From NCBI GenBank assembly GCA_002720855.1, contig PBIN01000002.1, positions 143,930-207,929 of the forward strand: DNA of 64,000 nucleotides, in the 5' to 3' direction. Origin of the DNA: Rhodospirillaceae bacterium. GTDB taxonomy: Bacteria; Pseudomonadota; Alphaproteobacteria; MPNO01; UBA2964. The position numbers were made by a program, and so were the translations under genes. A model generated the notes under the pieces. It ran no database searches, had not been told where the DNA came from, and was given only the letters and a program-made list of their open reading frames with translations. Each line of letters begins with the position of its first letter. Within the stretch, counting starts at the first letter, position 1. Below are positions 10,518 to 62,677 of this stretch, in pieces.

Positions 10518-10518
10518 A

Positions 10519-11673
10519 ATGAATTCTAGAACCCGAATTAAAAGAATTGAATCCTGGCTGATTAATTTCTTTTCATGCCTGTTCGTTGTCATTCTGTGTG
10601 CGCTTGTTATTGTCGGCGTACAGCGAAAACTCAGTGCTGCAGACTCACCAAATTTCGCAACAGTAAATTTAAAATTGGCACAATCCCATATTCTTCCACG
10701 GTATAAACGTCTGCAGACAAATGCTGCTCAATTCGAAGACGCTATAGTTAAACTTTGCAACGCCGCGGCGCCGCGCGACCCTTCGGCATCTCAGGCAGCA
10801 TTCCATCAGTTGATGGATGGTTGGATGGCGATCGAGCATATTCGACATGGCCCGGTGGAACTTTTGATGCGGAATTTCCGTATTCACTTCTGGCCTGATA
10901 AAGGAGCACGCGGCGCACGACAGATTCGTCTGCTCCACCAACGGCGTGATCAATCTGGATTGAAAAAGGATGCCTTTACTTCCGCCAGCGTGGCGGTTCA
11001 GGGTCTACCCGCCGCGGAACGGTTACTTTTCAGCAAGTCATATTCCAAGACGATTATCGATGCGAAGGAAAAAAATTACACATGCCAACTTTTGCAAGCG
11101 ATTGCTCAAAACATCAATGACATCTCCAAAGAGTTATTAGCGAGCTGGTCGCCGGGGTCTAATTCATACCAGGCCGTGATTCAGAATGCCGGAAAGCCAG
11201 GAAATAAATTTTCCAAACCTAAGGACGCAACCGCGGATTACGTAAAAGCAATGCATACGACGTTGAAGGTTTTGACCGATTTGAAACTGGATCGCGTTCT
11301 TGGAAAAACCATTGAGAAGGTCAAACCCAAGCGTGCGGAGTCGTGGAGAAGCAAGAGATCGCTCAGAAACATTATTTTTAACCTGAAAGCGCTCCAGGCA
11401 ATGTATGAGGGTGAAAAAGGGCTCGGTTTGAAGCACCTGATCGAGAGCAAACATCCCGACCTTTCCCGGCTGTTGTCTCGCGCTTTCAAAAAGACACTGG
11501 AAACCGCGCAAAGTATTCAACAACCGCTTACCGACGCTGTGACAATGCCTAAGCCGCGTTCCAAAGTCTTGCGCCTTGCGAAAGAAATGCGGGCACTGAA
11601 AGTGCTGGTAAGTGGCAAGCTTGCGCCGGCGATCGGCACGCCGCTCGGATTTAATGCCCTTGATGGGGACTAG
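10519..11673 (+). CDS. Second imelysin-like protein, without the GxHxxE motif
   Basis: A 384-residue protein starting one base after the stop codon of the di-haem gene, which implies translational coupling. An N-terminal membrane anchor or signal (about residues 17-38, FFSCLFVVILCALVIVG) leads into an all-helical imelysin domain. The GxHxxE motif of the first imelysin is replaced by VQGLPAAERLLF, the pattern typical of the second imelysin in these operons. This suggests it does not bind metal in the same way and may be a partner subunit. Confidence 0.82.
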   Translation: MNSRTRIKRIESWLINFFSCLFVVILCALVIVGVQRKLSAADSPNFATVNLKLAQSHILPRYKRLQTNAAQFEDAIVKLCNAAAPRDPSASQAAFHQLMDGWMAIEHIRHGPVELLMRNFRIHFWPDKGARGARQIRLLHQRRDQSGLKKDAFTSASVAVQGLPAAERLLFSKSYSKTIIDAKEKNYTCQLLQAIAQNINDISKELLASWSPGSNSYQAVIQNAGKPGNKFSKPKDATADYVKAMHTTLKVLTDLKLDRVLGKTIEKVKPKRAESWRSKRSLRNIIFNLKALQAMYEGEKGLGLKHLIESKHPDLSRLLSRAFKKTLETAQSIQQPLTDAVTMPKPRSKVLRLAKEMRALKVLVSGKLAPAIGTPLGFNALDGD

Positions 11674-30327: not shown

Positions 30328-30413
30328 TACGAAGCTCTCACAGGCTTGTTTAGCGGCATGTTTTCCGTATGATCCCGCCATCGCCTGGAAATATAAAATT
30401 TGAAGGATTGGAC

Positions 30414-31637
30414 ATGTCCAGCTCTGCTGCAGAGGCCGCCGGTTCAGGACCCAAACCCAAGAAATGGGCCAAGTTTAATTGGGAAGACCCGCTATTATTT
30501 GAGAACCAGCTGACGGAAGAAGAAAAGCTTGTACGAGATTCTGCGCGTCAGTATGCACAAGACAAGCTTATGCCGCGCATTCTCGAAGCGAATCGCAACG
30601 AGACGTTCGAGCGTGAAATCATGAATGAGATGGGCGAACTCGGTCTACTGGGTTCGACACTTGATACGAAATATGGCTGTGCTGGCGTCAACTATGTTTG
30701 CTATGGGCTCGTCGCGCGCGAAATCGAGCGAGTAGACTCGTCCTATCGTTCCACACTATCCGTGCAGAGCAGCTTGGTGATGTGGCCAATCTATGCCTAC
30801 GGCACCGAAGAACAGCGCCAAAAATACTTGCCCAAGCTGGCGACCGGCGAGTATGTCGGCTGCTTTGGCCTGACGGAGCCTGATCACGGCTCTGACCCCG
30901 GCAGCATGATCACGCGTGCAAAATCGGTTGATGGCGGATATGTGGTCAAAGGGGCGAAGATGTGGATTTCCAACGCGCCAATTGCCGATGTGTTTGTCGT
31001 CTGGGCGAAAGATGATGACGGAACTATTGGCGGCTTTATTCTTGAAAAAGGCATGAAAGGCCTCAGCGCGCCCAAGATTGAAGGCAAGTTCTCACTCCGT
31101 GCGTCGCTGACCGGCGAAGTTGTAATGGATGACGTATTTGTTCCGGAAGAAAACCGGCTTCCCGGCGCGCGCGGCCTTGGCGGTCCATTCGGTTGCCTAA
31201 ATAATGCACGCTATGGCATCGCCTGGGGTGTTTTGGGTGCAGCTGAGTTCTGCTGGCATGGCGCGCGCGATTACACAATGGAACGCACGCAGTTCGGTCG
31301 TCCGCTGGCAGCGAACCAGCTGGTTCAGAAAAAGCTTGCCGACATGCAGACCGAAATTACCGTCGCGCTTGAATCCTGTCTGCGTCTCGGTCGTCTGATG
31401 GATGATGGTGATTGCGCACCGGAAGCAATTTCTCTGATGAAACGCCATTGCACCGGTAAGGCACTTGATATCGCCCGCATATCCCGCGATATGCACGGCG
31501 GAAACGGTATCGTCGACGAATATCACATCATTCGTCATGCAATGAATCTGGAAACTGTTGTTACCTATGAGGGTACGCACGATATACACGCGCTGATCCT
31601 CGGACGGGCGCAAACCGGTATACAGGCATTTACATAG
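30414..31637 (+). CDS. gcdH: Glutaryl-CoA dehydrogenase (acyl-CoA dehydrogenase family)
   Basis: A 407-residue flavoprotein. ATG 30414 is chosen for the GAAGGA site nine bases before it. Family landmarks are all present: [68 protein letters not shown] and [19 protein letters not shown], whose Glu is the catalytic base. [16 protein letters not shown] and RAQTGIQAF favour glutaryl-CoA dehydrogenase over other acyl-CoA dehydrogenases. It oxidises and decarboxylates glutaryl-CoA to crotonyl-CoA, handing electrons to ETF. The CoA-transferase gene follows after about 100 bp, a usual pair for glutarate use, and glutarate is an expected product of the nicotinate genes downstream. Confidence 0.9.
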
Positions 31638-31738: not shown

Positions 31739-32968
31739 ATGACAGCACCACTTTCCCATATCCGTGTTCTTGATATGAGCCGGATTCTTGCTGGCCCATG
31801 GGCAGCGCAAACTCTGGCTGATCTTGGCGCCGAGGTTATCAAGATTGAACGACCCGGTACTGGCGATGACACGCGGACCTGGGGACCTCCATTCATTCAG
31901 GACACGGAAGGAAATGAGACGCAGGAGTCAGCTTATTTTCTGTCAACGAACCGCGGAAAAAAATCCGTGGCTCTCGATATCTCCAAACCCGAAGGTCAGG
32001 AGGTCCTCCGTAAGCTCGCGGCTAAATCGGATATTCTGATTGAGAACTACAAAGTCGGTGGTCTGGCGGGATATGGATTGGGTTATGAAGATCTCAAGAA
32101 AATCAATCCGGGTTTAATCTATTGTTCGATCACGGGTTTTGGTCAGACCGGGCCCTTTAGCTCGCGCGCAGGTTACGACTTTCTCATTCAGGCGATGGGC
32201 GGAATCATGAGTGTTACCGGTGAAGCAGATGGCAAGCCCGGTGCAGGTCCACAGAAGATCGGCATTGCCCTGACAGATGTCCTGACCGGCCTCTATACCA
32301 ATATTGCCGCACTCAGCGCGCTTGCCCGACGGGAAAAGACCGGCGAAGGCTGTCATATCGATATGGCGTTGCTGGATGTCACCACGGCAACGATGGCTAA
32401 TCAGGCGCTGAACTATCTCGTCACAGGCAACTCACCGACGCGCATGGGAAATGCGCACCCCAATATCGTTCCATACGAAGCTTTTGAAGCTTCTGACATG
32501 TATTTGATCGTAGCGGTTGGCAACGATGGACAGTTCACCCGGTTTGTCGAAGCTGCCGGTCAACCTGATCTTGCAACTGACGAACGCTTTGCCACCAATG
32601 CTGCACGCGTTGAAAACCGTGATGTTCTGATCCCGATCATCAAAGACTTCATGAAGCAAAAAACCGGTCAGGAGTGGATCGATGATCTGGAGAAAGTCGG
32701 TGTACCTTGCGGACCGTTAAACAATATGGAGCAGGTATTTGCGCATCCGCAAGTGCAGGCACGCGGCATGCAGATGGAACTTGATCACCCGCTCGCGGGG
32801 ACCGTTCCTCAGGTCGCCAGTCCGATAAAAATCACCGGTGAAGAATTTGAGTATCAGGGCGCACCGCCGACACTAGGCCAGCATTCAGAGCATGTACTTG
32901 GTGAGGTGTTGGACATGTCAGAGGATGAAATAACTGCGCTGCGCGACAGCGGAGTTTTGGGCAAATAG
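31739..32968 (+). CDS. CaiB/BaiF family CoA-transferase, probably for glutarate
   Basis: A 409-residue class III CoA-transferase: LDMSRILAGPWAAQTLADLG, AEVIKIERPGTGDDTRTWGP, GYDFLIQAMGGIMSVTGEAD and CHIDMALLDV, whose Asp is the residue that forms the acyl anhydride. Length and sequence are close to succinate/hydroxymethylglutarate CoA-transferases (SUGCT-like) that supply glutaryl-CoA. It sits directly after glutaryl-CoA dehydrogenase, which makes glutarate activation the likeliest role. No ribosome site is obvious at 31739. Confidence 0.88.
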   Translation: MTAPLSHIRVLDMSRILAGPWAAQTLADLGAEVIKIERPGTGDDTRTWGPPFIQDTEGNETQESAYFLSTNRGKKSVALDISKPEGQEVLRKLAAKSDILIENYKVGGLAGYGLGYEDLKKINPGLIYCSITGFGQTGPFSSRAGYDFLIQAMGGIMSVTGEADGKPGAGPQKIGIALTDVLTGLYTNIAALSALARREKTGEGCHIDMALLDVTTATMANQALNYLVTGNSPTRMGNAHPNIVPYEAFEASDMYLIVAVGNDGQFTRFVEAAGQPDLATDERFATNAARVENRDVLIPIIKDFMKQKTGQEWIDDLEKVGVPCGPLNNMEQVFAHPQVQARGMQMELDHPLAGTVPQVASPIKITGEEFEYQGAPPTLGQHSEHVLGEVLDMSEDEITALRDSGVLGK

Positions 32969-34784: not shown

Positions 34785-34829
34785 TTGACACAAATCGCCG
34801 TCCCCTAGATTATTCGTACACAAACGAAT
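34785..34829 (+). promoter_or_regulatory. MarR gene promoter and operator-like site
   Basis: TTGACA (34785-34790), a 17-bp spacer and GATTAT form the promoter. Just downstream is the inverted repeat ATTCGT-ACACAA-ACGAAT (34812-34829). The core GTACACAAACGAAT resembles the sites at 39926-39947 and 39759-39776, so autoregulation is likely. Confidence 0.65.
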
Positions 34830-34851: not shown

Positions 34852-35298
34852 ATGACGTCAAAAGAAGGGTATATTTTAGAGACTCAGGCGGGGCACCTGC
34901 TCCGCCGGGCCCATCAGCGCCATTCTGCAATTTTCCAGGAAAATATCGGTGAATCACAGCTAACGCCGCTGCAGTTTGCTGCTCTCGTCAAATTGCGTGA
35001 CCTAGAAGAAGTTTCGCAAAACCATCTAGGTCGTTTAACGGCGATGGATGCGGCGACGATGCAGGGTGTTATCAAAAGACTGGCGTCGCGTGGTTTAATT
35101 GAGCGTCGGCCTGATCCCAATGACAGGCGGCGCCTTATATTGAGTTTGAGCGCAGAGGGGAAAGCCTGTATCGATGCAATTATCCAGAACGGCAGCGGGA
35201 TCACCGCTCAAACGCTGGCGCCGTTGAGTTCTTCGGAGCAAAAGATTTTTCTGGATTTGCTTACCAAGCTGGCCCAGATGAACGGCAATGGTGATTAG
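34852..35298 (+). CDS. MarR-family transcriptional regulator
   Basis: A 148-residue MarR protein with the winged helix in NHLGRLTAMDAATMQGVIKR, LASRGLIERRPDPNDRRRL and ILSLSAEGKAC. The recognition helix and wing RPDPNDRRR are standard. Small phenolic or N-heterocyclic acids are the usual ligands of this family. It has its own promoter with a palindromic site, and similar sites stand between the 2-oxoacid:ferredoxin oxidoreductase and 6-hydroxynicotinate reductase operons, so it probably represses all three. It converges on the ferredoxin reductase gene with seven bases between stops. Confidence 0.9.
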   Translation: MTSKEGYILETQAGHLLRRAHQRHSAIFQENIGESQLTPLQFAALVKLRDLEEVSQNHLGRLTAMDAATMQGVIKRLASRGLIERRPDPNDRRRLILSLSAEGKACIDAIIQNGSGITAQTLAPLSSSEQKIFLDLLTKLAQMNGNGD

Positions 35299-35305
35299 CC
35301 TCTTA

Positions 35306-36631
35306 CTAACGAGTTGCGTTTAAGCCCTCAAGCATACTTTCGACAGTGCAGAACTTTTTACGTGGCGATGGTTCAATTGCGGCCTTTTCTTCGAGATCTT
35401 TGATTACAAGCCAATCTTCGAATGAAACTGCCTGTAAATCCCGGTCGCAAACGAGCGAATCCATTGCGTTAGGCCCAGGCATGGGATCGCCAGCAAAGTC
35501 AGAGATCAGCAAATCCGTCACAGCATAGGAATCGAGGCGGTTGGTTCCTATCGTGCCAGTGGCTCCTCTTTTGACCCAACCCGCCGCATAGACGCCTGGA
35601 GAGACTCGACCTTCCTCGTGTTCGACGATACCGCTTCGGTCATTAAAAGGAATGCCTTCAATTGGTTCGGCCCGCGATCCGATACAGGTGATTACCATTT
35701 CACAGGGAATGTCGAATGTTTCACCGGTACTTATACAACGACCATTTTCAACTTTGGTCCGTTCCATTCGAATGCCTTCTACCTTGTCGCCGCCGAGAAT
35801 TTCGGTGGGGGAGGCAAAAAACTCTATATGCACTGTACGGCGTTTCTCACCGGCTTTTGCCTGAGATAATTCTTTAAACGTGTCTACGATACGCGCCCGG
35901 ACTTTCTTTTCCCGGTCATCCATTTCTTCTGGCATTTCAGCCGGTAGCACCGAGGGGTCGACCACAGTCGTAGCCGCTTCAAGAACACCCATCTCTTTTA
36001 GTTCGTTGTTCGTGCAGGCCGCCTCAAGTGGACCGCGACGCGCAAACATATAAATGTTTTTCAGGGACGCAGCCTCAATGGAATCCATCGCATAATCGGC
36101 AATGTCGGTTGTCGACATCTCCGCTGGTGTCCGGGACAATACGCGCGCCACGTCGATTGCAACGTTGCCAATTCCGATTACCGCTGCGTTCCCAATTTCT
36201 AGATTGGGGCCTAGGTCTTTAAAATCTGGATGGCAGTTGTACCAGCCAACAAAGGCGTTGGAGCCGTATACATTTTCTTTATCTTCTCCAGGGATACCGA
36301 GTTTGTTGTCATATGGTGCGCCATACGCAAGGACGACGGCATCGTATATCTGATTAAGTTCGTCGAGACCTACGTCACGTCCAAGTGCTACATTGCCGAC
36401 ATAGCGGACACTTTCGTTTTCGGTGATGCTCTGTGCATATTTCTGATCAACGCGTTTGGTTTTTTGATGATCAGGCGCTACGCCTCCCCTAATCAATCCG
36501 AAGGGCGAAGGCAGGCGGTCAATAATATCGACCCTGCACCCCGGCGCTTTCTCAAGAAGTGCCTGCGCTACATACATGCCACCCGGACCTGAGCCGACGA
36601 TGGCAACACTACGGTTGCTGAACTCACCCAT
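35306..36631 (-). CDS. Ferredoxin-NADP+ reductase, adrenodoxin-reductase type
   Basis: A 441-residue FAD protein with the FAD site VAIVGSGPGGMYVAQALL, then DRLPSPFGLIRGGVAPDHQK and VVLAYGAPYDNKLGIPGED. The NADP domain (AAVIGIGNVAIDVARVLSRT) and the late FAD contact (PGVYAAGWVKRGATGTIGTN) follow. These are diagnostic of FprA/adrenodoxin reductases. It moves electrons between NADPH and ferredoxin. The gene starts 149 bp after a KorB terminator, in the same direction. Here it would balance the ferredoxin pool made by the 2-oxoacid oxidoreductase. A ferredoxin gene is not visible in the window. Confidence 0.92.
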   Translation of the reverse strand: MGEFSNRSVAIVGSGPGGMYVAQALLEKAPGCRVDIIDRLPSPFGLIRGGVAPDHQKTKRVDQKYAQSITENESVRYVGNVALGRDVGLDELNQIYDAVVLAYGAPYDNKLGIPGEDKENVYGSNAFVGWYNCHPDFKDLGPNLEIGNAAVIGIGNVAIDVARVLSRTPAEMSTTDIADYAMDSIEAASLKNIYMFARRGPLEAACTNNELKEMGVLEAATTVVDPSVLPAEMPEEMDDREKKVRARIVDTFKELSQAKAGEKRRTVHIEFFASPTEILGGDKVEGIRMERTKVENGRCISTGETFDIPCEMVITCIGSRAEPIEGIPFNDRSGIVEHEEGRVSPGVYAAGWVKRGATGTIGTNRLDSYAVTDLLISDFAGDPMPGPNAMDSLVCDRDLQAVSFEDWLVIKDLEEKAAIEPSPRKKFCTVESMLEGLNATR

Positions 36632-36722
36632 ACTTACACCTGAATTCTTATTTAGGCTTTTATACGGTGATGATAGCCGAACCGCGTGCAGAGGGAACCC
36701 CTGCCTTTCAATTTTTCACATT

Positions 36723-36758
36723 AAAAAAAGCCCTAGAAAATTATCTTCCAGGGCTTTT
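36723..36758 (-). terminator. Terminator after the 2-oxoacid:ferredoxin oxidoreductase operon
   Basis: On the minus strand AAAAGCCCT / AGGGCTTTT forms a stem with a run of seven T after it, about 20 bases past the KorB stop codon. Confidence 0.8.
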
Positions 36759-36779
36759 GCATTTTCGAAAATTAAAAGA

Positions 36780-37805
36780 TCAGACGACAGTCCAGGTCTT
36801 ACCCTTGTGCATAAGGTCATTAACCGGAATGGCCTCTGTATTCTCTTTGATCTCGTCGATCTGACTATAGACCGCTTCATCGTACGCTTGGCCGGGATCG
36901 CGAAAAATAACACCCATTGCTACCGGGAAATCAGGCGGTTGCATGCCGGCAAGCATCAAAGCCAACGGCCGATTGGTTTCGTCGTGGACAAGAATGTCGT
37001 CCTCGGTGACGCCGTCTTCACCAATGGTGACAACCTCGAGTTCCATTTTTCCAGGAGTCAATCGCAGGCCTTTTTCGCTTTCTTTACCGAAAACGAGGGG
37101 CTCACCATGTTTGCAAAGAATTTGGCCGTCCGCCACATTCGCTTTGTCGGTGAATGAGGAATAAACACCATCGTTATAAACGATACAGTTCTGCAAAATT
37201 TCGACGAAAGATGCACCTTTGTTTTCTTTCGCCTCCTGAAGCAGGCCCGGCAATACTTTTTGATTTGTATCGACAGATCGTCCAACAAAACGTGCGTTGC
37301 AACCAAGTGCAAACACGCACGCTGATACGGGTGAGTCGACAGATCCCGCCGGAGTCGATGGAGAACGGGTCCCGACTTTAGAGGTCGGTGAATATTGACC
37401 CTTTGTCAGGCCGTAAATTTCGTTGTTAAAAAGCAGGACTTGAACATCAATGTTACGGCGCAAAACGTGAAGGGTGTGATTGCCACCGATACTGAGCATA
37501 TCGCCATCACCGCCGATTACCCAAACATCCAGTTCCGGATTGGCAAGTTTAACGCCGGAAGCAACGGCAGGTGCTCGGCCGTGAATTGTGTGAAATCCGT
37601 AGGTCGCCATGTAGTAGGGGAAACGTGCCGCACAACCAATACCTGAGACGAACACTGTATTTTTAGGGTCGGCACCCATATTGGCCAGTGAACGCTGTAC
37701 CGCCTTTACGATGGCGTAGTCTCCACAACCAGGGCACCATCTTACTTCCTGGTCGGACGCAAAGTCATTTGGCTTTAGTGCTTCTGGCGGGCTTTGTACG
37801 TTCAT
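36780..37805 (-). CDS. korB: 2-oxoacid:ferredoxin oxidoreductase, beta subunit (KorB-like)
   Basis: A 341-residue thiamine-diphosphate subunit. The Cys pair WCPGCGDYAIVKAV binds part of a [4Fe-4S] cluster, and the ThDP motif is GGDGDMLSIGGNH with NNEIYGLTKGQYSPTS. These match the beta subunit of 2-oxoglutarate or pyruvate:ferredoxin oxidoreductases; KQ/ KG specificity is not proved. It would decarboxylate a 2-oxoacid with CoA and give reduced low-potential ferredoxin. GAGG lies seven bases before the ATG, and the alpha subunit's stop is three bases upstream. Confidence 0.92.
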   Translation of the reverse strand: MNVQSPPEALKPNDFASDQEVRWCPGCGDYAIVKAVQRSLANMGADPKNTVFVSGIGCAARFPYYMATYGFHTIHGRAPAVASGVKLANPELDVWVIGGDGDMLSIGGNHTLHVLRRNIDVQVLLFNNEIYGLTKGQYSPTSKVGTRSPSTPAGSVDSPVSACVFALGCNARFVGRSVDTNQKVLPGLLQEAKENKGASFVEILQNCIVYNDGVYSSFTDKANVADGQILCKHGEPLVFGKESEKGLRLTPGKMELEVVTIGEDGVTEDDILVHDETNRPLALMLAGMQPPDFPVAMGVIFRDPGQAYDEAVYSQIDEIKENTEAIPVNDLMHKGKTWTVV

Positions 37806-37808
37806 TGA

Positions 37809-39674
37809 TTAATCCTCTACCCGGCTTCGGATTTCCTGTTCCAAATCTGCAACCTTGAAGGGTTGTCCTGTAATCTGAGCCAGAGACTCGGCATCTACCA
37901 AATACTCAGAGCGCAGCAGAGTTACGAGTTGCCCGTTATTCATCTCAGGAATCAGAATTCGATCAAAGCCGTTCAACAGGTCACCGAGATTTTTGGGCAA
38001 GGGCCAGATATAACGAATATGAATATGCGATACATCCAGGCCTGCTTCCTGACACCGCCGTGTTGCCTGCTCAATAGCACCGTATGTTGATCCCCAGCCA
38101 ACCACCGCAAGTTTCCCGGATGTATTGCCAGAGGCTACGTCTTGATCGGGAATGTCATCGGCAACGTTAAGGACTTTTTGCGCACGGACTTTCGTCATCT
38201 TGTGATGGTTGTCAGCATCGTAAGAGATGTTGCCCGAGTCATAATCTTTTTCAATGCCACCGATACGATGCTCAAGACCAGGTGTACCGGGAATGGCCCA
38301 GTTTCGGCCCAAAGTCTTTTCATCGCGGAGGTACGGGTGAAATCCTTCTGTCTCAGACGCGAATTCGACCGGAAAAGGTTCAATGTCGTCGGTGTCAGGC
38401 AATTTCCAGGGCTCTGCTGCATTGGCCAGAAAACCCTCATTGAGAAACATAACCGGAGTCATGTACTTAGTGGCGATCCGTACGGCCTCGATGGCGCATT
38501 CATAACAATCTGAAGCCGTTGATGCAGAAATCACTGGCATCGGGGTGTCACCATTTCGGCCAAACACTGACTGAAAAAGATCAGATTGCTCGGTTTTAGT
38601 CGGCATGCCTGTCGACGGCCCGGCACGTTGGAAATTAACGACAACCAGCGGCAATTCCGTCACAACCGCTAACCCCAAGGCTTCAGACTTTAAAGCAACG
38701 CCGGGGCCAGAGCTTGAGGTAACGCCAATAGCGCCAGCATATGAAGCGCCAATCGCGGAACAGACGGCTGAAATTTCATCCTCAGCCTGGAAGGTGACGA
38801 CACCGTACTGTTTGAGATTGCTAAGAGAATGCAACAAAGGCGATGCCGGCGTGATTGGGTAAGATCCAAGGAAAATATTCAGTCCGGCTTTCTGCGCACC
38901 AACCAATAGTCCCCAGCAAGTCGTTTCGACTCCCGTTACCGCCCGGTAGATACCTGGTTCTACTTTGGCTTTCGGAACAACATAGGTACTGATTTCGCTA
39001 GGCAACTCAGCGGTTTCACCGAAAGCGTGTCCGGCATTGAGAGCGGCAATATTTGCTTCTGCAATGTTTGGCAATTTTCCAAAGCGTTGGTTGAGCCAAT
39101 CTATTGTGGGCTGCCGATCACGGTTATACATCCAGCACATTAGCCCCAGCGTCCACAGATTTTTAGCTCTTAGGGCCTCTTTCTGTGTCACATCGATGCC
39201 TTCAACGGCAGCGAGCGTCAGTTTGGAAATGTCGATTTCAATAAGTCTGTAATCTTCAAGTGTCCCGTCTTCCAGGGGATTTGAGGTATATCCAGCTTTC
39301 TCAATATTTCGGTCTGTAAAGGAACCGAGGTTCACAATCACAGTTCCACCCGGAACCAAATCCTTCAAATGAACTTTTAATGCGGCCGGGTTCATCGCAA
39401 CCAGAACGTCTGGTGCATCACCCGGGGTCTTGATCACGTGAGATGCAAAATTGATCTGGAACGCGGAAACACCATAAGTCGTACCCACCGGAGCACGAAT
39501 TTCAGCCGGAAAATCCGGGAAAGTAGACAGGTCGTTTCCCATTAAGGCTGTAGATTGTGTGAACTGAGTACCCGTCAACTGCATTCCATCGCCCGAATCG
39601 CCTGCGAAGCGAATGACGACGGAGTCGATGATTTCTCGGCCGCTCTCGTCGGTTTCTTTTAGTTGTGTAGCCAT
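37809..39674 (-). CDS. korA: 2-oxoacid:ferredoxin oxidoreductase, fused gamma-alpha subunit (KorA-like)
   Basis: A 621-residue protein joining the gamma domain (VIRFAGDSGDGMQLTGTQFT, about residues 15-200) to the alpha domain (GLNIFLGSYPITPASPLLHS, then FQAEDEISAVCSAIGASYAG and TSSSGPGVALKSEALGLAV). This fused form is common in alphaproteobacterial and mycobacterial Kor enzymes that work under aerobic conditions. ATG 39674 is preferred over TTG 39710, which lacks a ribosome site. It is divergent from the 6-hydroxynicotinate reductase operon, separated by about 300 bp holding two operator-like repeats. Conversion of 2-oxoglutarate to succinyl-CoA is the likeliest reaction. Confidence 0.92.
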   Translation of the reverse strand: MATQLKETDESGREIIDSVVIRFAGDSGDGMQLTGTQFTQSTALMGNDLSTFPDFPAEIRAPVGTTYGVSAFQINFASHVIKTPGDAPDVLVAMNPAALKVHLKDLVPGGTVIVNLGSFTDRNIEKAGYTSNPLEDGTLEDYRLIEIDISKLTLAAVEGIDVTQKEALRAKNLWTLGLMCWMYNRDRQPTIDWLNQRFGKLPNIAEANIAALNAGHAFGETAELPSEISTYVVPKAKVEPGIYRAVTGVETTCWGLLVGAQKAGLNIFLGSYPITPASPLLHSLSNLKQYGVVTFQAEDEISAVCSAIGASYAGAIGVTSSSGPGVALKSEALGLAVVTELPLVVVNFQRAGPSTGMPTKTEQSDLFQSVFGRNGDTPMPVISASTASDCYECAIEAVRIATKYMTPVMFLNEGFLANAAEPWKLPDTDDIEPFPVEFASETEGFHPYLRDEKTLGRNWAIPGTPGLEHRIGGIEKDYDSGNISYDADNHHKMTKVRAQKVLNVADDIPDQDVASGNTSGKLAVVGWGSTYGAIEQATRRCQEAGLDVSHIHIRYIWPLPKNLGDLLNGFDRILIPEMNNGQLVTLLRSEYLVDAESLAQITGQPFKVADLEQEIRSRVED

Positions 39675-39758
39675 AAGTCCGATTAGGTTACAAGGCGTAC
39701 AAACGCCCAAACTCGGGTTAAATCAAATGTCTGTAATATCACGACTCTGTAAAAATTA

Positions 39759-39776
39759 TTGTATGTACACGTACAA
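39759..39776. promoter_or_regulatory. Operator-like site upstream of the korA gene
   Basis: TTGTA-TGTACACG-TACAA, an inverted repeat, lies 85 bp before the korA start. It shares TGTACAC with the sites before the MarR gene and before the 6-hydroxynicotinate reductase operon. Confidence 0.5.
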
Positions 39777-39899
39777 TTCTATTAGCGCCAGTATCGGCTA
39801 AGCCAAGAAATTGTCAAGAGTAACGCGCGGAAAATCCGGATGACTGGATTGGCGCTTCGCAAGGCCGATAAAACGATGATTCCGGTCGTTCTATCTTTC

Positions 39900-39947
39900 T
39901 TGACAGAAAACAATGTCTCGCAGATATTTGTATGTACACAAACAAAT
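39900..39947 (+). promoter_or_regulatory. Promoter and operator-like site of the 6-hydroxynicotinate reductase operon
   Basis: TTGACA (39900-39905), a 17-bp spacer and GATATT make the promoter. The inverted repeat ATTTGT-N10-ACAAAT (39926-39947) overlaps the -10 region and contains GTACACAAACAAAT, nearly the same as GTACACAAACGAAT before the MarR gene. Repressor binding here would block the promoter. Confidence 0.65.
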
Positions 39948-39981
39948 AATCTAGACGCAGCTCTTTGCAGAGGAGGGCATC

Positions 39982-41475
39982 ATGGCCGACGAAACAAAAA
40001 GCAAAAATGAAGAACCCGTCAGATGCGATGCCTGCCCGGTTTTGTGCCGAATTCGTGATGGCAGAACAGGGGCATGTAGTCGATATGGCAATTTTGATGG
40101 GAAGCTGGTCCGGATGGATCCCGTCGTCGTTGCTCAAAAGGTCATGGATGAAAATGGCGAGATGATTCCCTTTGCGCAGGCCTCGGAAGACTGGGACGGT
40201 GCTGTCATCAGTCAGGCCCCGACGTTCCTGACTGGTATTGGCGCTAAAACGACCTACCCCGACTACAAGCCGGCACCGTTTATTGTGGGGAGCGACCAGG
40301 ATGGCGTCGATATGGTCACCGTGGTCAGTGAAGGGGTCTTTAGCTATTGCGGTGTGAAAGTAAAGATCGACACCGATGCTTATGTTGGTCCCGAACCGGC
40401 GGCAGTCCGGGTCAATGGTGAGCAGGTCGGGCATGTGACCACAGCGGAGTATGGGTCACAAATGCTGGCGATTGGCGGCGTCCGCCATCTGACGGGTGGA
40501 AGCAAAAAAGAGGGCAATGTCACCTGTAATACTATGATGCGCCTTTGTAATAAAGAGGCCGTCGAGATGACCATCGACGATGGTGCCGAAATTGTGGTTC
40601 AGGCCGGAAAGCCACCGGTCGTCAATGGTATACAGGAAGAACGCATGCGCGTTGGTTGCGGTTCTGCAACAGTTGGTATTTTTGCCCCGCAATGGCACAG
40701 CCATGTCGATGAAGTAATTGTTGTCGATGATCACATCACAGCAGTGTTGAGCGAACATCAGGCGGGCAAATTTATCGATATGCCACCCGCGGGAATAAAG
40801 GTCCGTGGCCGCCGTTCGACTGCTGGCCGCTATTTCCAGGTAGCTGACCATGGTGCAGGATGGGGGGGTACGGATATTACTGATCCACTCGATATTATTG
40901 ATAAGATCGACCCCGAAGTGGCCTGGGCCGGCCAGCGCCTGCTGATGGTATCAACAACAGGGCAGGACTCAGCATATTTCGAACTGGACGATGACCTAAA
41001 ACCCATTGAAAAAGACATGCCCGACGCGGTTAAGGTCGTCGTCGACAGGATTGGTGAAAACTGCGAGCCGGCTTTATGTACCGTAATGTTCATGGGTGGG
41101 GCAGGTGGTAGTTTGCGAGCTGGTGTAACGGTAAATCCGGTTTTGCTCACACGGTCGGTGAAAAAGACTCTGACGCAGGTTACTTGCGGCGGTGCGCCCG
41201 TGTTTGTTTGGCCGGGTGGCGGCATAACGTTGTTGGTTGATGTGAATGAAATGCCCGACAATTCATTTGGCTATGTGCCAACCCCGGCACTTGTAGCGCC
41301 CATCGAATTCACGGTTCGTGCAGATGACTATGAAGAACTCGGCGGTTATATGGATAAGATCAAGACTTTAGAGGAAATTCTCGAAAACGAAAAAGTACGC
41401 TCCGTTCCATGGCAGGAAGATCACCCATGGCCTCTTGATGTCGGAAAACAATTGGAACAGGAGCAGGAAAACTGA
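39982..41475 (+). CDS. 6-hydroxynicotinate reductase homologue
   Basis: A 497-residue protein with an excellent AGGAGGG site. The N-terminus has a four-Cys cluster motif, Cys15, Cys18, Cys22 and Cys32 (RCDACPVLCRIRDGRTGAC), followed by RYGNFDGKLVRMDPVV. This start and the overall length match 6-hydroxynicotinate reductase (EC 1.3.7.1) of Eubacterium barkeri and its rhizobial homologues. That enzyme uses reduced ferredoxin to convert 6-hydroxynicotinate to 1,4,5,6-tetrahydro-6-oxonicotinate. Other conserved Cys-rich pieces are CNTMMRLCNKEAVEM and RVGCGSATVGIFAPQW. It leads a four-gene operon, and an enamidase homologue for the next step lies 9 kb downstream. A related N-heterocycle as substrate is possible. 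Confidence 0.82.
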   Translation: MADETKSKNEEPVRCDACPVLCRIRDGRTGACSRYGNFDGKLVRMDPVVVAQKVMDENGEMIPFAQASEDWDGAVISQAPTFLTGIGAKTTYPDYKPAPFIVGSDQDGVDMVTVVSEGVFSYCGVKVKIDTDAYVGPEPAAVRVNGEQVGHVTTAEYGSQMLAIGGVRHLTGGSKKEGNVTCNTMMRLCNKEAVEMTIDDGAEIVVQAGKPPVVNGIQEERMRVGCGSATVGIFAPQWHSHVDEVIVVDDHITAVLSEHQAGKFIDMPPAGIKVRGRRSTAGRYFQVADHGAGWGGTDITDPLDIIDKIDPEVAWAGQRLLMVSTTGQDSAYFELDDDLKPIEKDMPDAVKVVVDRIGENCEPALCTVMFMGGAGGSLRAGVTVNPVLLTRSVKKTLTQVTCGGAPVFVWPGGGITLLVDVNEMPDNSFGYVPTPALVAPIEFTVRADDYEELGGYMDKIKTLEEILENEKVRSVPWQEDHPWPLDVGKQLEQEQEN

Positions 41476-42339
41476 ATGTTTTCGCCGCCGCAAATGGCTC
41501 TGTTGCCAGATGGCAAGCGGCTGCACCTAAACCAGGGGCCAATTGATCTAATTGTTCAGGCATTTGGCGAATCCGGCGAGGTTGGCAAATCATATGAACA
41601 AGCAATGGGTATATTCCCAGACATCCTGACAGATTTAGTAAAAGAGCTCCTAAGGTTGCGGCAACCGTACGATAAAAATTGGCAACCTGCCGGGTCTGTT
41701 GCGGCTTCTATGCAGGAAGCAATTACACCTCACAAGAATAGCTTTGTGACACCGATGGCGGCGGTAGCAGGCGCGGTCGCTGATTACGTTTTGGCGGCTT
41801 TGATTAAGGATCGGAAACTCAACAAAGCCTATGTAAATAACGGCGGCGATATCGCTTTTCATTTAACGCCAGGTCAAAGCCTAACCGCGGGTCTCGTTGC
41901 TGATTACCATCTTCCCAATATTGATGGGCAATGTGAATTAGACCATGAGATGCCTGTACGTGGGATTGCGACGAGTGGGTGGAAAGGCCGGAGCTTCTCT
42001 TTGGGTATCGCGGATTCGGTGACTGTTTTGGCTGAAAACGCCGCAAAAGCGGATGTAGCTGCAACATTGATAGCCAATGCGGTAGATGTTGATGATCCAG
42101 CGATTGCACGGGAGCCAGCATCGGCATTGGACCCCGATAGTGACTTGAGAGACAGGCTGGTAACTGTCGGTGTAGATGCATTAACCTCACCGACCATAGA
42201 TCTGGCACTTGATGAAGGTCAGAAATCTGCAGAGCTGATGGAACAGGCTGGACACATCAAGGCGGCAGTGTTGGTATTGCAGGACAATTTCAGGGTAGTT
42301 GGAAGCGCGCCTGCCGGATTTATAGAACAGGCGGCATAA
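41476..42339 (+). CDS. UPF0280 / ApbE-like protein
   Basis: A 287-residue protein whose ATG touches the stop codon of the reductase gene. VTPMAAVAGAVADYVLAALI and YVNNGGDIAFHL are the features shared with ApbE-type flavin transferases and the UPF0280 family. A homologue accompanies the 6-hydroxynicotinate reductase gene in other genomes as far as I recall. It could attach FMN covalently to a protein of the pathway or maintain the flavin of the reductase; neither is shown. Confidence 0.8.
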   Translation: MFSPPQMALLPDGKRLHLNQGPIDLIVQAFGESGEVGKSYEQAMGIFPDILTDLVKELLRLRQPYDKNWQPAGSVAASMQEAITPHKNSFVTPMAAVAGAVADYVLAALIKDRKLNKAYVNNGGDIAFHLTPGQSLTAGLVADYHLPNIDGQCELDHEMPVRGIATSGWKGRSFSLGIADSVTVLAENAAKADVAATLIANAVDVDDPAIAREPASALDPDSDLRDRLVTVGVDALTSPTIDLALDEGQKSAELMEQAGHIKAAVLVLQDNFRVVGSAPAGFIEQAA

Positions 42340-42349
42340 GGAGAACGGA

Positions 42350-42985
42350 ATGGACGATTCAAGAAGTATCTCAGACATCCAGACAACATCGCAGGGTGAT
42401 TTTGGCGAATTGGTGAAAGTTCGCAAATTCGTCATGCACATTGAAGAAATACTGCATGAATTTGGTCCGCCGGCAGATCCGCCGCAACTCAAAGGGTATA
42501 TCGCTGCTGTTTGTGCCAACCCTTATGCCGGTCGTTATGTTGATGATTTGATGCCGTTAATGGAGGCGCTCAAGCCACTGGGGACGGCAATGGCACACCG
42601 CCTTATCGATGCTCTTGGTGGCGCAGACAATATTGTCGCTTATGGAAAATCGGCAATCGTTGGCGAAAATGGTGAATTGGAGCACGCGGCTCTATGGCAT
42701 GAGCCCGGTGGATATGGCATGCGCCAATTGATTGCGCCATCCAAAGCGATCGTGCCATCGACGAAAAAGGTTGCCGGACCAGGACGCCCCGTCGATGTAC
42801 CATTGGCTCACGTGAACGCCGCATATGTTAGAAGTCATTTCGACTGTATCGAATGCTCTATTCCAGATGCGCCACGCGCAGATGAGGTTGTGTGGATACA
42901 ATCTATGGCGACAGGTGCGCGGATTTATGACCGTGCAGGCGGACTAAAGGATTCTGACATCAAGGGAGAGGATGGACTCAAATGA
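42350..42985 (+). CDS. Amino acid synthesis (PF06684) family protein, copy 1
   Basis: A 211-residue protein of the family called 'amino acid synthesis' (PF06684), a name not based on proven function. Segments shared with the next gene are GYIAAVCANPYAGRYVDDL, KSAIVGENGELEHAALWHE, VPLAHVNAAYVRSHFDCIE and PDAPRADEVVWI. It starts 10 bp after the UPF0280 gene, and its last four bases overlap the next start. The operon suggests a role in the ring-reduction pathway, for instance as a hydrolase or isomerase acting on a lactam. Confidence 0.8.
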   Translation: MDDSRSISDIQTTSQGDFGELVKVRKFVMHIEEILHEFGPPADPPQLKGYIAAVCANPYAGRYVDDLMPLMEALKPLGTAMAHRLIDALGGADNIVAYGKSAIVGENGELEHAALWHEPGGYGMRQLIAPSKAIVPSTKKVAGPGRPVDVPLAHVNAAYVRSHFDCIECSIPDAPRADEVVWIQSMATGARIYDRAGGLKDSDIKGEDGLK

Positions 42986-43566
42986 AGGCCAATATCAGAA
43001 AGACCCAGGTAATTGTTGAAACGACCAATAGTGATGTTGGTAAAGCTGTTGATCCACCCACTCGCAAAGCTGCGGCGTTGGCAGTCATCGAGAACCCTTT
43101 TGCCGGGCGTTATGAAGAAGATTTATCTGAGTTGATGGACATCGGTGAAGAACTTGGCGGCTATCTTGGCAAGATGTGTGTCGATGCGCTGGGAATTACA
43201 CCGGAGCAGGCTGAAAGTTATGGCAAGGCCGCGATTGTTGGTGAAAATGGTGAATGGGAACATGCTGCGGCGATCCTTCATCCCAAGCTCGGAGCGCCGC
43301 TTCGCAAAGAGGTGGAAAAAGGTGCGGCGCTCGTTCCTTCGGTAAAGAAACTTGGCGGGCAGGGGTGCCGGATCGATGTGCCGCTTGGTCACAAGGATGC
43401 GGCATACGTTCGAAGTCATTTCGACGGCATGGAAGTCGGTATTGCTGATGCACCCCGTGCCAATGAAATCCTGGTTGCGATCTCCGTAACAGATTCGGGT
43501 CGGCCATTTCCGAGAGTGGGCGGGCTCACGACCGATGAAATGGTTGGTGAAGACGGTCTCCGATAA
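42982..43566 (+). CDS. Amino acid synthesis (PF06684) family protein, copy 2
   Basis: A 194-residue paralogue of the preceding gene (AVIENPFAGRYEEDLSELMD, KAAIVGENGEWEHAAAILHP, VPLGHKDAAYVRSHFDGMEV, ADAPRANEI). The ATG overlaps the stop codon of copy 1 (ATGA type), so the two are translated together and may form a heteromer. It is the last gene of the operon, followed by a terminator. Confidence 0.82.
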   Translation: MKANIRKTQVIVETTNSDVGKAVDPPTRKAAALAVIENPFAGRYEEDLSELMDIGEELGGYLGKMCVDALGITPEQAESYGKAAIVGENGEWEHAAAILHPKLGAPLRKEVEKGAALVPSVKKLGGQGCRIDVPLGHKDAAYVRSHFDGMEVGIADAPRANEILVAISVTDSGRPFPRVGGLTTDEMVGEDGLR

Positions 43567-50288: not shown

Positions 50289-51449
50289 TTACTCGACCTC
50301 AGGCAGATTATTCGCCGGTGGGGTATTGCGGCTGCGGTGACAGGCGATCTTACCGTCAATGATAACCATACCAACGCCAGGAATATCGCCGAGACCAATA
50401 GCCTCGAGCACGGTTTTTCCTGCCGAATGTTGCGGTGCGTCAATAAATATCAGATCAGCGGCGCGACCCACTTCGATCAGACCGCAATCGAGCTCGCGCA
50501 CGCGGGCGGTATTCCCGGTCCCGAAACAGATTACGGTTTCTGCGGGTACATCGCCGAGCGACGACAACATTGAAATCATGCGGATGATACCAAGCGGCTG
50601 GACACCCGAACCGGCCGGGCCGTCAGTACCAAGTATGACACGGCTCTCTTCGCCAAGCTCAAACGCGGTGCGCATCGCATAAAGCGCGGCCTTCTCATTA
50701 CCGTTATGAACGATTTCGATACCGGCGCTGCAATCCTCACAAAGACAACGGATCTGATCGAGGGGCAGGGCCGTATGCCCGCCATTGATATGTCCGATAA
50801 TGTCGGCACCCGCTTCGAGGACAATGTCCTTATCGATAAGACCCGAACCCGGTATCGATGGCCCGCCAGTATGGATCGTGCTCTGGATGCCGTACTTGCG
50901 TGCCCAGTCCACCATGATTTTGGCTTCGTCGCCGGCCTTGACGCCGCCAAGCCCGATCTCACCGAGAAGCTTAACGCCGGCCTCGGCCATGAATTTGAAA
51001 TCGTCTTCGACCATATCCTTCTCGAGGATCGGTGCGCCGGCATGCATTTTGACCTGACCGGGATAGGCGCTGAAGGAGCGCTGCGCGGCAATGGCCAGTG
51101 CGACGACGCCTTTCGGATCGCGCGGACGACCCGGAAAATGCGCCTCACCTGCCGAAATCATCGTGGTTACGCCGCCATGCATCGAACTGTCGATCCAGTT
51201 GACCTGACTTTGACGTGGCGTCCAGTCACCGGCGACAGGGTGGACGTGACTATCGATCAGGCCCGGTGCCAACGCAGCGCCGTTGCCATTCACCGTTGTA
51301 TTGGCATTTTCAGTATCAAGATCGGATTTCTTGCCGATCGCTATAATCTTGCCGTCTTCGATGACGACCGTATCGGCATCGAGTATCGGCTCTTCCAGAG
51401 CGCCGGATAGCATCATTCCGACATTTTTGATAACCAGTTTTTCCGCCAT
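50289..51449 (-). CDS. Enamidase homologue (amidohydrolase superfamily)
   Basis: A 386-residue amidohydrolase starting at ATG 51449 (GGGAG upstream; GTG 51470 is an alternative). It closely follows Eubacterium barkeri enamidase: PGLIDSHVHPVAGDWTPRQ, HGGVTTMISAGEAHFPGRPR, IHTGGPSIPGSG, GHINGGHTALP, LGTDGPAGSGVQPLGIIRM and the C-terminal RNTPPA. Metal ligands are the HVH pair, the later His residues and the Asp in GTDGPAG. Enamidase hydrolyses 1,4,5,6-tetrahydro-6-oxonicotinate to 2-formylglutarate and ammonia, the product of the reductase encoded at 39982. The Mo hydroxylase gene follows four bases after its stop. Confidence 0.85.
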   Translation of the reverse strand: MAEKLVIKNVGMMLSGALEEPILDADTVVIEDGKIIAIGKKSDLDTENANTTVNGNGAALAPGLIDSHVHPVAGDWTPRQSQVNWIDSSMHGGVTTMISAGEAHFPGRPRDPKGVVALAIAAQRSFSAYPGQVKMHAGAPILEKDMVEDDFKFMAEAGVKLLGEIGLGGVKAGDEAKIMVDWARKYGIQSTIHTGGPSIPGSGLIDKDIVLEAGADIIGHINGGHTALPLDQIRCLCEDCSAGIEIVHNGNEKAALYAMRTAFELGEESRVILGTDGPAGSGVQPLGIIRMISMLSSLGDVPAETVICFGTGNTARVRELDCGLIEVGRAADLIFIDAPQHSAGKTVLEAIGLGDIPGVGMVIIDGKIACHRSRNTPPANNLPEVE

Positions 51450-51726
51450 TATGGGCTCTCCCAAATACACCTTCTGCGTTCGATTTTTTGTACCGATATG
51501 ATTACCCGAGATGAGCGCTTAAGCAAATGGGGTGGGGGAGAAAAATTCGGAAAAGTCAGATTAACGAAGTTTAGCCGCTTTGGAAGAGATATTCCCTACC
51601 AGAATGCTATTTCGAGGCCCTCTGGAATATAGAACTCTGAATACCAATATTTACGTCCAAGTGGCTGTCGTTTGGAAGGTACATGTCCCCTTCTTACTGG
51701 ATCGGTAGCGGGGAGGTGATTTGCGT

Positions 51727-61015: not shown

Positions 61016-62677
61016 ATGGCGAACGATCCTAAATCGTTTGACGGTAAGGGATATCCCGATTTTCAGGATCACCTGAAAGCGCTTGATGAAGCGGGCTTGC
61101 TTGAGACCGTCGACAAGCCGGTCAATAAAGACACTGAAATGCACCCGCTGGTGCGTTGGCAATTCCGGGGTGGAATCCCTGAAACCGATCGAAAGGCGTT
61201 TGTTTTCAACAATATTACCTGCTCGCGCGGCCAATCATATGGCCTGCCTGTGGCGGTGGGGGCGCTCTCGGCCAACCGGGCAATTTACAGCATTGGTATT
61301 GGTGCCGATGTTGAGGACATCGGGAAGGTGTGGAGCAATGCGATTGCCAACCCGATTGCACCCCGTGAGGTGACGGAGGCACCGTGCCAGGAAGTCGTTA
61401 TTGACTCTGATCTCGAAGGAGAAGGGAAGGGCCTGGACAGCTTGCCGATCCCAATTTCGACACCGGGATTTGATAGCGCTCCGTATTTCACTGCAACCGG
61501 CTGTATCAGTCGTAACCCCGAAACCGGTGTGCAGAACATGGGCACCTATCGTGCAGGGCTGAAAAGCTCGACGCGAATGGCGGTGCGCATGTCAGTCCGG
61601 TCGGGCGGAGCGGAAGGTCACCAGCACTGGCTGCAATACAAGGAACGCGGCGAAAAAATGCCAATGGCGATCATCCTCGGCGGGCCACCCAGCGTTTGTT
61701 ACTGCGCGCCGCAAAAGCTGCAGCTTGGTGTCGATGAGGTTGGCGTTGCCGGCGGCCTGGTTGGCAATCCAATCAATATGGTGAAAGCCAAGACGGTAGA
61801 TCTCATGGTTCCAGCGGAAGCCGAAATCGTCGTCGAAGGATATATCGACCCGGAATACCTGGAGCCCGAAGCACCATTTGGCGAAAGCCACGGCCATATT
61901 GCGCTGGAAGATTACAACAACATCATGGAAATAACGGCCATCACCCATCGCAAAAGTGCTGTCATCGCCAGCATCATTTCACAGGTGACGCCCTCTGAAT
62001 CGAGCGTCATCAAACGCGTTGCGTGGGAGCCGGTATGGTACAACCATCTGACGGATCACCTCGGCATCAAGGGCATCAAGCGGGTCTCGATGCACGAGCC
62101 GCTAACCAATATCCGCCGGGTGCTGTTTATCGTATTTGAGCGTGGGGTCCCGACCACGGAAATCTGGCGGGCGCTTTATGGTGCTTCAGTGCTCAACTCT
62201 GCCGTCGGCAAATACATTATTGCGGTGAATGAGGATATTGATCCCGACGAGGGAGATGCTGTTTTCTGGGCGCTGGCCTATCGCGCCAACCCGGCGCTTG
62301 ATGTCGCAATCCTGCCACATCGCGACAAAGGCCATGGTCCAAAAAGCGATCTTCGAATGGGACGCGAAGAAGCGACCATGCTGATCGATGCGACGCTTAA
62401 ATCGGATATGCCGCCGATTGCCCTGCCAACCAAAGAATATATGGAAGGGGCCAAAGAGCTTTGGGAGAAGCTCGATCTGCCGCCGCTCAAACCAGAGAGC
62501 CCATGGCATGGCTATTCGCTGGGTGACTGGCATGATCAGTGGGAAGACATGGCGAAACGGGCGGCTGATGGCAATTATCTGGAAAATGGGCGCAGAAGCG
62601 CGCAGCTGCGCCGAAATGACGTCTTCCCCAATACGTCCATCCGCGATGTACCCGGCAATCCATTTGAGGACGAATAG
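61016..62677 (+). CDS. UbiD-family prenylated-FMN decarboxylase, paralogue 4
   Basis: A 553-residue UbiD-family enzyme of a different subgroup from paralogues 1-3 (opening DFQDHLKALDEAGLLETVDK, MHPLVRWQFRGG). The catalytic pieces are kept as VQNMGTYR, with Asn and Arg, and EAPFGESHGH, where both Glu are conserved although the family's EGPFGEW reads EAPFGES. GGGGAGAG precedes the ATG. An operator-like palindrome lies upstream and a TetR gene follows after 14 bp, so the gene is probably induced by its substrate through that regulator. Substrate unknown. Confidence 0.92.
   Translation: MANDPKSFDGKGYPDFQDHLKALDEAGLLETVDKPVNKDTEMHPLVRWQFRGGIPETDRKAFVFNNITCSRGQSYGLPVAVGALSANRAIYSIGIGADVEDIGKVWSNAIANPIAPREVTEAPCQEVVIDSDLEGEGKGLDSLPIPISTPGFDSAPYFTATGCISRNPETGVQNMGTYRAGLKSSTRMAVRMSVRSGGAEGHQHWLQYKERGEKMPMAIILGGPPSVCYCAPQKLQLGVDEVGVAGGLVGNPINMVKAKTVDLMVPAEAEIVVEGYIDPEYLEPEAPFGESHGHIALEDYNNIMEITAITHRKSAVIASIISQVTPSESSVIKRVAWEPVWYNHLTDHLGIKGIKRVSMHEPLTNIRRVLFIVFERGVPTTEIWRALYGASVLNSAVGKYIIAVNEDIDPDEGDAVFWALAYRANPALDVAILPHRDKGHGPKSDLRMGREEATMLIDATLKSDMPPIALPTKEYMEGAKELWEKLDLPPLKPESPWHGYSLGDWHDQWEDMAKRAADGNYLENGRRSAQLRRNDVFPNTSIRDVPGNPFEDE

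Follow-up and report, generated by a model that had tools for sequence, protein, structure and literature searches.

How do aerobes get low-potential ferredoxin for a reductive attack on a pyridine ring? The question is raised by a locus of the alphaproteobacterium Rhodospirillaceae bacterium, in which hnr, the gene for a homologue of 6-hydroxynicotinate reductase (Hnr; EC 1.3.7.1, an enzyme that uses reduced ferredoxin), lies divergent from korA, korB and korC, which code for a 2-oxoacid:ferredoxin oxidoreductase (Kor) and a ferredoxin-NADP reductase. The locus is part of a stretch of 64 kb, referred to below as the window (positions 143930-207929 of contig C2, in a genome of 3.58 Mb that is 98% complete), and an original prediction made from these letters alone held that this Kor serves the reductase. 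We find that hnr and kor are very likely co-regulated and that delivery of electrons from Kor to Hnr is likely. Taken as one statement, that KorAB(C) is a member of a regulon responding to 6-hydroxynicotinate and is the source of the low-potential electrons spent by Hnr, the reading is in our judgement a probable one.

The divergent hnr and kor genes

The three kor genes are on the minus strand. The product of korA (37809..39674) holds the POR and POR_N domains in a single chain (PF01855, PF01558) and matches TIGR03710 with 621 bits against a cut-off of 483 (1.3e-186); its fused gamma and alpha domains with the CoA motif GxxGxG, here GDSGDG, are those of the Kor/OGOR type. KorB (36780..37805) has the thiamine pyrophosphate (TPP) site and [4Fe-4S] cysteines of a Kor/OGOR-type beta subunit (motifs CPGC and GDG...N; PF02775; PorB_KorB/TPP_enzyme_C), and scores 240.8 bits to TIGR02177 (2e-71), slightly under the cut-off of 261.9. 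The best solved relative of KorA is the fused-chain oxidoreductase 6n2n (1.6e-70), and one relative is named a 2-oxoglutarate synthase (8ys5); 2-oxoglutarate, the putative substrate of KorAB, is compatible with these structures. KorC (35306..36631, 441 aa) is an FAD-containing ferredoxin-NADP reductase, and the label adrenodoxin-type given to it in the original prediction is correct, since adrenodoxin reductase (1cjc, 1.4e-83) and FprA (1lqt, 8e-82) are the solved structures that match it best. The Cys positions of the 441 aa protein form no CxxC or Cys cluster motif. The prediction had these genes back to back with the hnr operon at 35306-39974, and all three are there; only the start of korA has to be moved, most likely from TTG 39710 to ATG 39674 (MATQLKETD..., conserved in relatives), and position 39974 is the intergenic end beside hnr.

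The hnr gene (39982..41475, plus strand) codes for N-terminal cysteines, CDACPVLC...GAC, that relatives retain and that recur in named nicotinate clusters. Searches with Hnr gave no Pfam family and no PDB match. The protein is 66% identical to a Bradyrhizobium homologue in the same type of cluster; the protein of Bradyrhizobiaceae SG-6C is 42% identical to Hnr of Eubacterium barkeri (PMC3511419). Modelling of Hnr with AlphaFold2 from 20 sequences gave a structure (mean pLDDT 59.8, pTM 0.43) too poor for a fold search. Two ideas about Hnr were dropped: a covalent flavin on its GSAT stretch, with UPF0280 in the role of an ApbE-like partner, for which the Thr is not conserved (several homologues have GSAA), and selenocysteine at the in-frame TGA of some homologues, which in the three checked is an ordinary terminal stop.

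Conservation of the arrangement

The order to which the window belongs, an uncultured one, has hnr in 24 and korA in 23 of 27 genomes, and both in 11/11 good assemblies. The two genes share a contig in 20 genomes from four families, f1 to f4, and in each of these they diverge at a distance of at most about 4.1 kb (one of the 20, G011, has its korA piece cut by the contig end). Since the divergent arrangement recurs in every member of the order with both genes on one contig, it is not due to chance. In f1, korA and hnr face each other directly; in f2-f4 hnr is separated from the shared promoter region by genes for an FAD subunit and a fused molybdenum hydroxylase of nicotinate-dehydrogenase type. 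Those close relatives that carry names are metagenome bins, often marine ones, labelled Rhodospirillaceae, UBA830 or uncultured Alphaproteobacteria.

Outside the order, a korA orthologue occurs in 28 of 64 genomes of the class sample with hnr and in 60 of 317 without it (p = 4e-5, uncorrected for phylogeny), the orthologues in hnr-free genomes having about 50-67% identity. There korA lies beside hnr in only two class-sample genomes of one genus, as a co-directional korABC-ndhM-ndhL-hnr; a survey of named genomes added two loci of this korABC-ndhML-hnr type (L255, L258) and one with a different order, hnr-marR-UPF0280-AA_synth-korA (L283). Species of Thalassobaculum and Pelagibius also possess the hnr cluster. 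The conserved adjacency proposed as a check on the original prediction is thus found throughout the informative genomes of the order, and independent linkages exist elsewhere. Comparison with the proteins of the window brought out no other electron donor beside hnr in the Kor-less genomes, most other neighbours not being identified.

Closely similar clusters, with hnr of 62-68% identity, were also seen in bins that bear the names Chloroflexi, SAR324, Deltaproteobacteria, Terriglobales/Acidobacteriaceae and Betaproteobacteria (L303, L307, L317, L318, L328; for Betaproteobacteria e.g. L266, L275). This suggests either horizontal spread or mislabelled bins.

Palindromes shared by hnr, korA and marR

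A palindrome with the consensus TTGTATGTACAC[A/G][A/T]ACAA is present at the hnr promoter, at the korA promoter and upstream of marR, a regulator gene beside korC. Operator H at hnr (TTGTATGTACACAAACAA, 39928..39945, centre of the palindrome TATTTGTATGTACACAAACAAATA) has no mismatches and the best score in the window with a position weight matrix (PWM), 27.8; operator K at korA (TTGTATGTACACGTACAA, 39759..39776) also has none and scores 25.1; operator M (TTATTCGTACACAAACGA, 34810..34827), 24 bp upstream of marR, has two mismatches to the palindromic consensus and the window's third best score, 24.4. The interval 39675-39981 holds two palindromes, and a search of the 64 kb with up to three mismatches found no others (four hits on both strands, 0.22 expected). 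By consensus match only, hnr has a -35-like TTGACA (39900..39905, plus strand) and, at a 17-nt spacing, a -10-like GATATT (39923..39928, plus strand) that touches operator H, and korA has TTGACA (39812..39817, minus strand) and GATACT (39790..39795, minus strand) 16 nt apart. Each operator would thus overlap its -10-like box or follow closely after it, as a repressor site is expected to do.

Relatives retain operators at hnr, korA and marR. Most relatives from f1 and f3 again have sites on both sides, and in f2 and f4 the hydroxylase-side operator is preserved. Extra copies occur in f3 upstream of a glutaryl-CoA dehydrogenase/CoA-transferase gene pair, in f2/f3 near Rieske-oxygenase and AA_synth/enamidase genes, and in other orders upstream of nicotinate hydroxylase genes in the hnr operon. 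With the pattern reversed, as a control, there were 0-2 hits per genome and strand; the true pattern gave up to 8.

The rest of the genome has one further good copy, 39 bp upstream of a UbiD-family gene (G000:C2:135199-135216), and a weaker match at C14:423872. Counting the present genome (L202 9700-9717; gene 9757-11322), nine of f1 retain the UbiD-side operator. One may speculate that the substrate of this decarboxylase is 1,4,5,6-tetrahydro-6-oxonicotinate (THON), because THON is an alpha,beta-unsaturated acid.

A BpsR-type MarR regulator

The product of marR (34852..35298, plus strand) is related to BpsR (6pcp, 1.9e-26), the Bordetella protein that represses nicotinate genes, is released by 6-hydroxynicotinate and contacts this ligand through Tyr15, His23, Arg26 and His32 (PMC6837509). 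In an alignment to 6pcp all four contacts are identical (Y7, H15, R18 and H24 of MarR), and the 11 homologues tested from the order all have the same four residues. Homologues from other orders keep the Tyr and Arg and vary at both His positions, and 2nnn, a solved relative somewhat closer to MarR than BpsR is, has Phe and Tyr there. Because of the position of marR, the operator copy upstream of it and conservation, MarR is the candidate protein to bind the palindromic operator.

Operators at korA genes unlinked to hnr

If Kor is part of the response to 6-hydroxynicotinate, korA should carry the operator even where it is not linked to hnr. We scanned 450 bp upstream of korA with a PWM trained on sites of hnr, ndhM and marR (one of them near an enamidase gene) and on no korA-side site, some of the training sites coming from genomes later tested. 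Unlinked korA genes scored at least 19 in six of 24 hnr-bearing genomes (f5, f40, f76, f81 and two of f137, five families), whereas none of the 36 korA genes of hnr-free genomes exceeded 10.2 (Fisher p = 0.0027). Within one genus, g47, the hnr-bearing G175 has a site of 24.2 and G062 a weak one of 10.4, and the hnr-free G261, G330 and G395 reach 1.0-3.6. When all korA upstream scores were compared by rank (Mann-Whitney), the difference was not significant (p = 0.27), because most of the 24 hnr-bearing genomes have no convincing site; the signal is a separate high-scoring group. In some of the six, a divergent neighbour could be the controlled gene instead of korA. Since unlinked korA genes carry the operator in five other families, Kor appears to have been recruited to the regulon more than once.

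Oxidation of 2-oxoglutarate and the pathway genes

The chief objection foreseen to the original prediction was that this Kor might be the only 2-oxoglutarate-oxidizing enzyme. The objection fails: genes for SucA (955 aa, above cut-off), SucB and a dihydrolipoamide-dehydrogenase-like protein adjoin in this genome, and because of this complete sucA-sucB-lpd set Kor is not its sole 2-oxoglutarate oxidase. A SucA-family match is present in 22 of the 27 genomes of the order. One f4 genome (G026, 99% complete) has kor and hnr and no SucA-family match, and there Kor may be the only 2-oxoglutarate oxidase.

The window also holds an enamidase homologue, for the step after Hnr (50289..51470, minus strand; 2vun enamidase, 1.6e-107), a glutaryl-CoA dehydrogenase homologue (30369..31637, plus strand; 1sir, 3.1e-184) and a family III succinyl-CoA:glutarate CoA-transferase-like gene (31739..32968, plus strand; 9br6, 1e-111; 4ed9, 7e-129; NF052585, 1.5e-152, its best NCBIfam match and below cut-off). 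Together with hnr these genes fit a breakdown of nicotinate through 6-hydroxynicotinate and THON, a route described in E. barkeri, Azorhizobium and Bradyrhizobiaceae SG-6C (PMC3511419, PMC9304392).

Downstream of hnr, on the plus strand, follow its constant partner, a UPF0280 protein (41476..42339; NF003322, 2.4e-108), and two AA_synth family proteins (42350..42985; PF06684, 3.3e-67; and 42982..43566; PF06684, 4.9e-73; 2qtp, 7.9e-90). UPF0280 and AA_synth genes (here 41476-42339 and 42350-43566) often partner hnr across Alphaproteobacteria, perhaps to mature Hnr or to handle THON. Another UbiD-family gene lies inside the window (61016-62677), and distant relatives of it in f3 genomes, at about 30% identity, carry the operator opposite the glutaryl-CoA dehydrogenase gene (L241, L243, L245). 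The load of molybdenum hydroxylases is unusual, with more than 30 matches to the xanthine-dehydrogenase-family large subunit in this 3.6 Mb genome. The gene pair of nicotinate-dehydrogenase type that other families have next to hnr is here on another contig (G000:C14:697161-699881; L151 8138-11757), and no operator was found at it.

Discussion

We propose that without substrate the BpsR-type MarR would occupy the palindromes of hnr, korA and marR and repress all three, and that 6-hydroxynicotinate would release it. KorAB would then convert 2-oxoglutarate and CoA to succinyl-CoA and CO2 with reduction of ferredoxin, Hnr would use the reduced ferredoxin to turn 6-hydroxynicotinate into THON, and KorC would exchange electrons between ferredoxin and NADPH. 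The succinyl-CoA may feed the neighbouring glutarate CoA-transferase, in which case both Kor products would be used in one pathway. A wider reading, which we advance tentatively, joins these elements into a self-balancing module of cells that possess 2-oxoglutarate dehydrogenase (OGDH): one repressor of BpsR type, switched by the ring substrate, would control it, each Kor turnover would give two electrons per 6-hydroxynicotinate and one succinyl-CoA per glutarate, and Kor would have been enlisted several times independently in Alphaproteobacteria. The original prediction that Kor serves the reductase is supported by the conserved adjacency and the separate OGDH complex and, beyond the layout, by the signs of co-regulation, namely the shared operator, the MarR residues and the unlinked korA genes; electron transfer is a step that we infer.

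Several observations weigh against the proposal. One genome of the order (G004) has hnr and no korA, and 36 of the 64 other hnr genomes of the class lack this korA, so hnr can work without Kor. Genomes without hnr, too, can have KorAB together with an FprA-type gene, and the module is therefore older or wider than this use. A good korA-side site is missing in f2, in f4 and in one genome of f3 (G023), and three quarters of the unlinked korA genes in hnr-bearing genomes are without the operator. Furthermore, the co-expressed ferredoxin gene that was to be looked for is absent from both the hnr and the kor operon; FdxA, encoded on another contig (C15:385525), is the only free-standing ferredoxin of 2[4Fe-4S] type among the PF00037 matches.

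Of the alternatives, the one that survives best, while still unlikely, is that Kor belongs to the regulon chiefly as a source of succinyl-CoA for the glutarate CoA-transferase, with NADPH through KorC, and that Hnr uses another donor. It draws on the glutaryl-CoA dehydrogenase and CoA-transferase-like genes in the cluster, which bear operators in f3 relatives, on the FprA-like nature of KorC and on the many hnr genomes without Kor. However, OGDH already yields succinyl-CoA, so that ferredoxin best explains the recruiting of a ferredoxin-linked enzyme, and it is hnr, not the CoA-transferase gene, with which Kor shares its promoter region. This alternative and electron supply to Hnr are compatible and do not exclude each other.

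Considerably less probable is that Kor acts on another 2-oxoacid, such as a pathway intermediate, and is a catabolic step and not an electron source. The substrate within this superfamily is not readable from family models alone, and KorB falls slightly short of its model; but 8ys5 is found among the fused-subunit relatives headed by 6n2n, the route from THON to 2-formylglutarate as described has no 2-oxoacid (PMC9304392), and orthologues occur in hnr-free genomes. That the adjacency is an inherited accident and Kor a general enzyme of the tricarboxylic acid (TCA) cycle with no role in nicotinate breakdown is very unlikely: the divergent examples do all come from one order, korA and hnr are mostly unlinked elsewhere and Kor may serve the cycle in G026, but the operator is shared by both promoters, is carried by unlinked korA in five other families, and there are two further, independent linkages.

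The locus names a candidate donor, regulator, ligand and operator sites for the electron supply of pyridine-ring reduction, and shows a 2-oxoacid oxidoreductase of 'anaerobic type' beside a complete OGDH, apparently for a specific catabolic job. It also advises caution, in that not every Kor in a genome is a TCA-cycle enzyme.

Comparison with known systems

A search of the available literature found no paper that joins 2-oxoglutarate ferredoxin oxidoreductase with nicotinate degradation. The closest precedent is the benzoyl-CoA system of Thauera aromatica, in which a 2-oxoglutarate:ferredoxin oxidoreductase supplies the ferredoxin for benzoyl-CoA reduction, according to work cited in PMC6500515; as there, a Kor predicted to oxidize 2-oxoglutarate is here tied to a dearomatisation that needs low-potential ferredoxin. 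Unlike in Thauera and Azoarcus, the ring is 6-hydroxynicotinate, sucA-sucB-lpd is also present, and control would be by a BpsR-type MarR. Azoarcus evansii has a related NADP+-linked three-subunit enzyme, KGOR, whose third (FAD) subunit carries two [4Fe-4S] clusters, whereas KorC is of FprA type and without Cys clusters.

With the clusters of E. barkeri, Azorhizobium caulinodans and SG-6C the locus shares hnr and enamidase homologues and conserved uncharacterised proteins; for those THON clusters PMC3511419 and PMC9304392 report no kor, whereas here kor is divergent from hnr with the same operator. Mycobacterium tuberculosis, an aerobe, likewise has a fused korA plus korB, and its KorAB is stable in air and takes over from OGDH the completion of the TCA cycle (PMC2773412); here, in contrast, OGDH is present and Kor would belong to a catabolic regulon. 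MarR resembles BpsR, the MarR repressor of nicotinate catabolism in Bordetella, in its four conserved 6-hydroxynicotinate contacts (PMC6837509), and differs from it in that BpsR governs the oxidative nic pathway, whereas the predicted targets of MarR are a reductive pathway and the supply of electrons to it. Ring reduction driven by 2-oxoglutarate is thus known for benzoyl-CoA reductase, and what is new here is the ring substrate, the control and the coexistence with OGDH.

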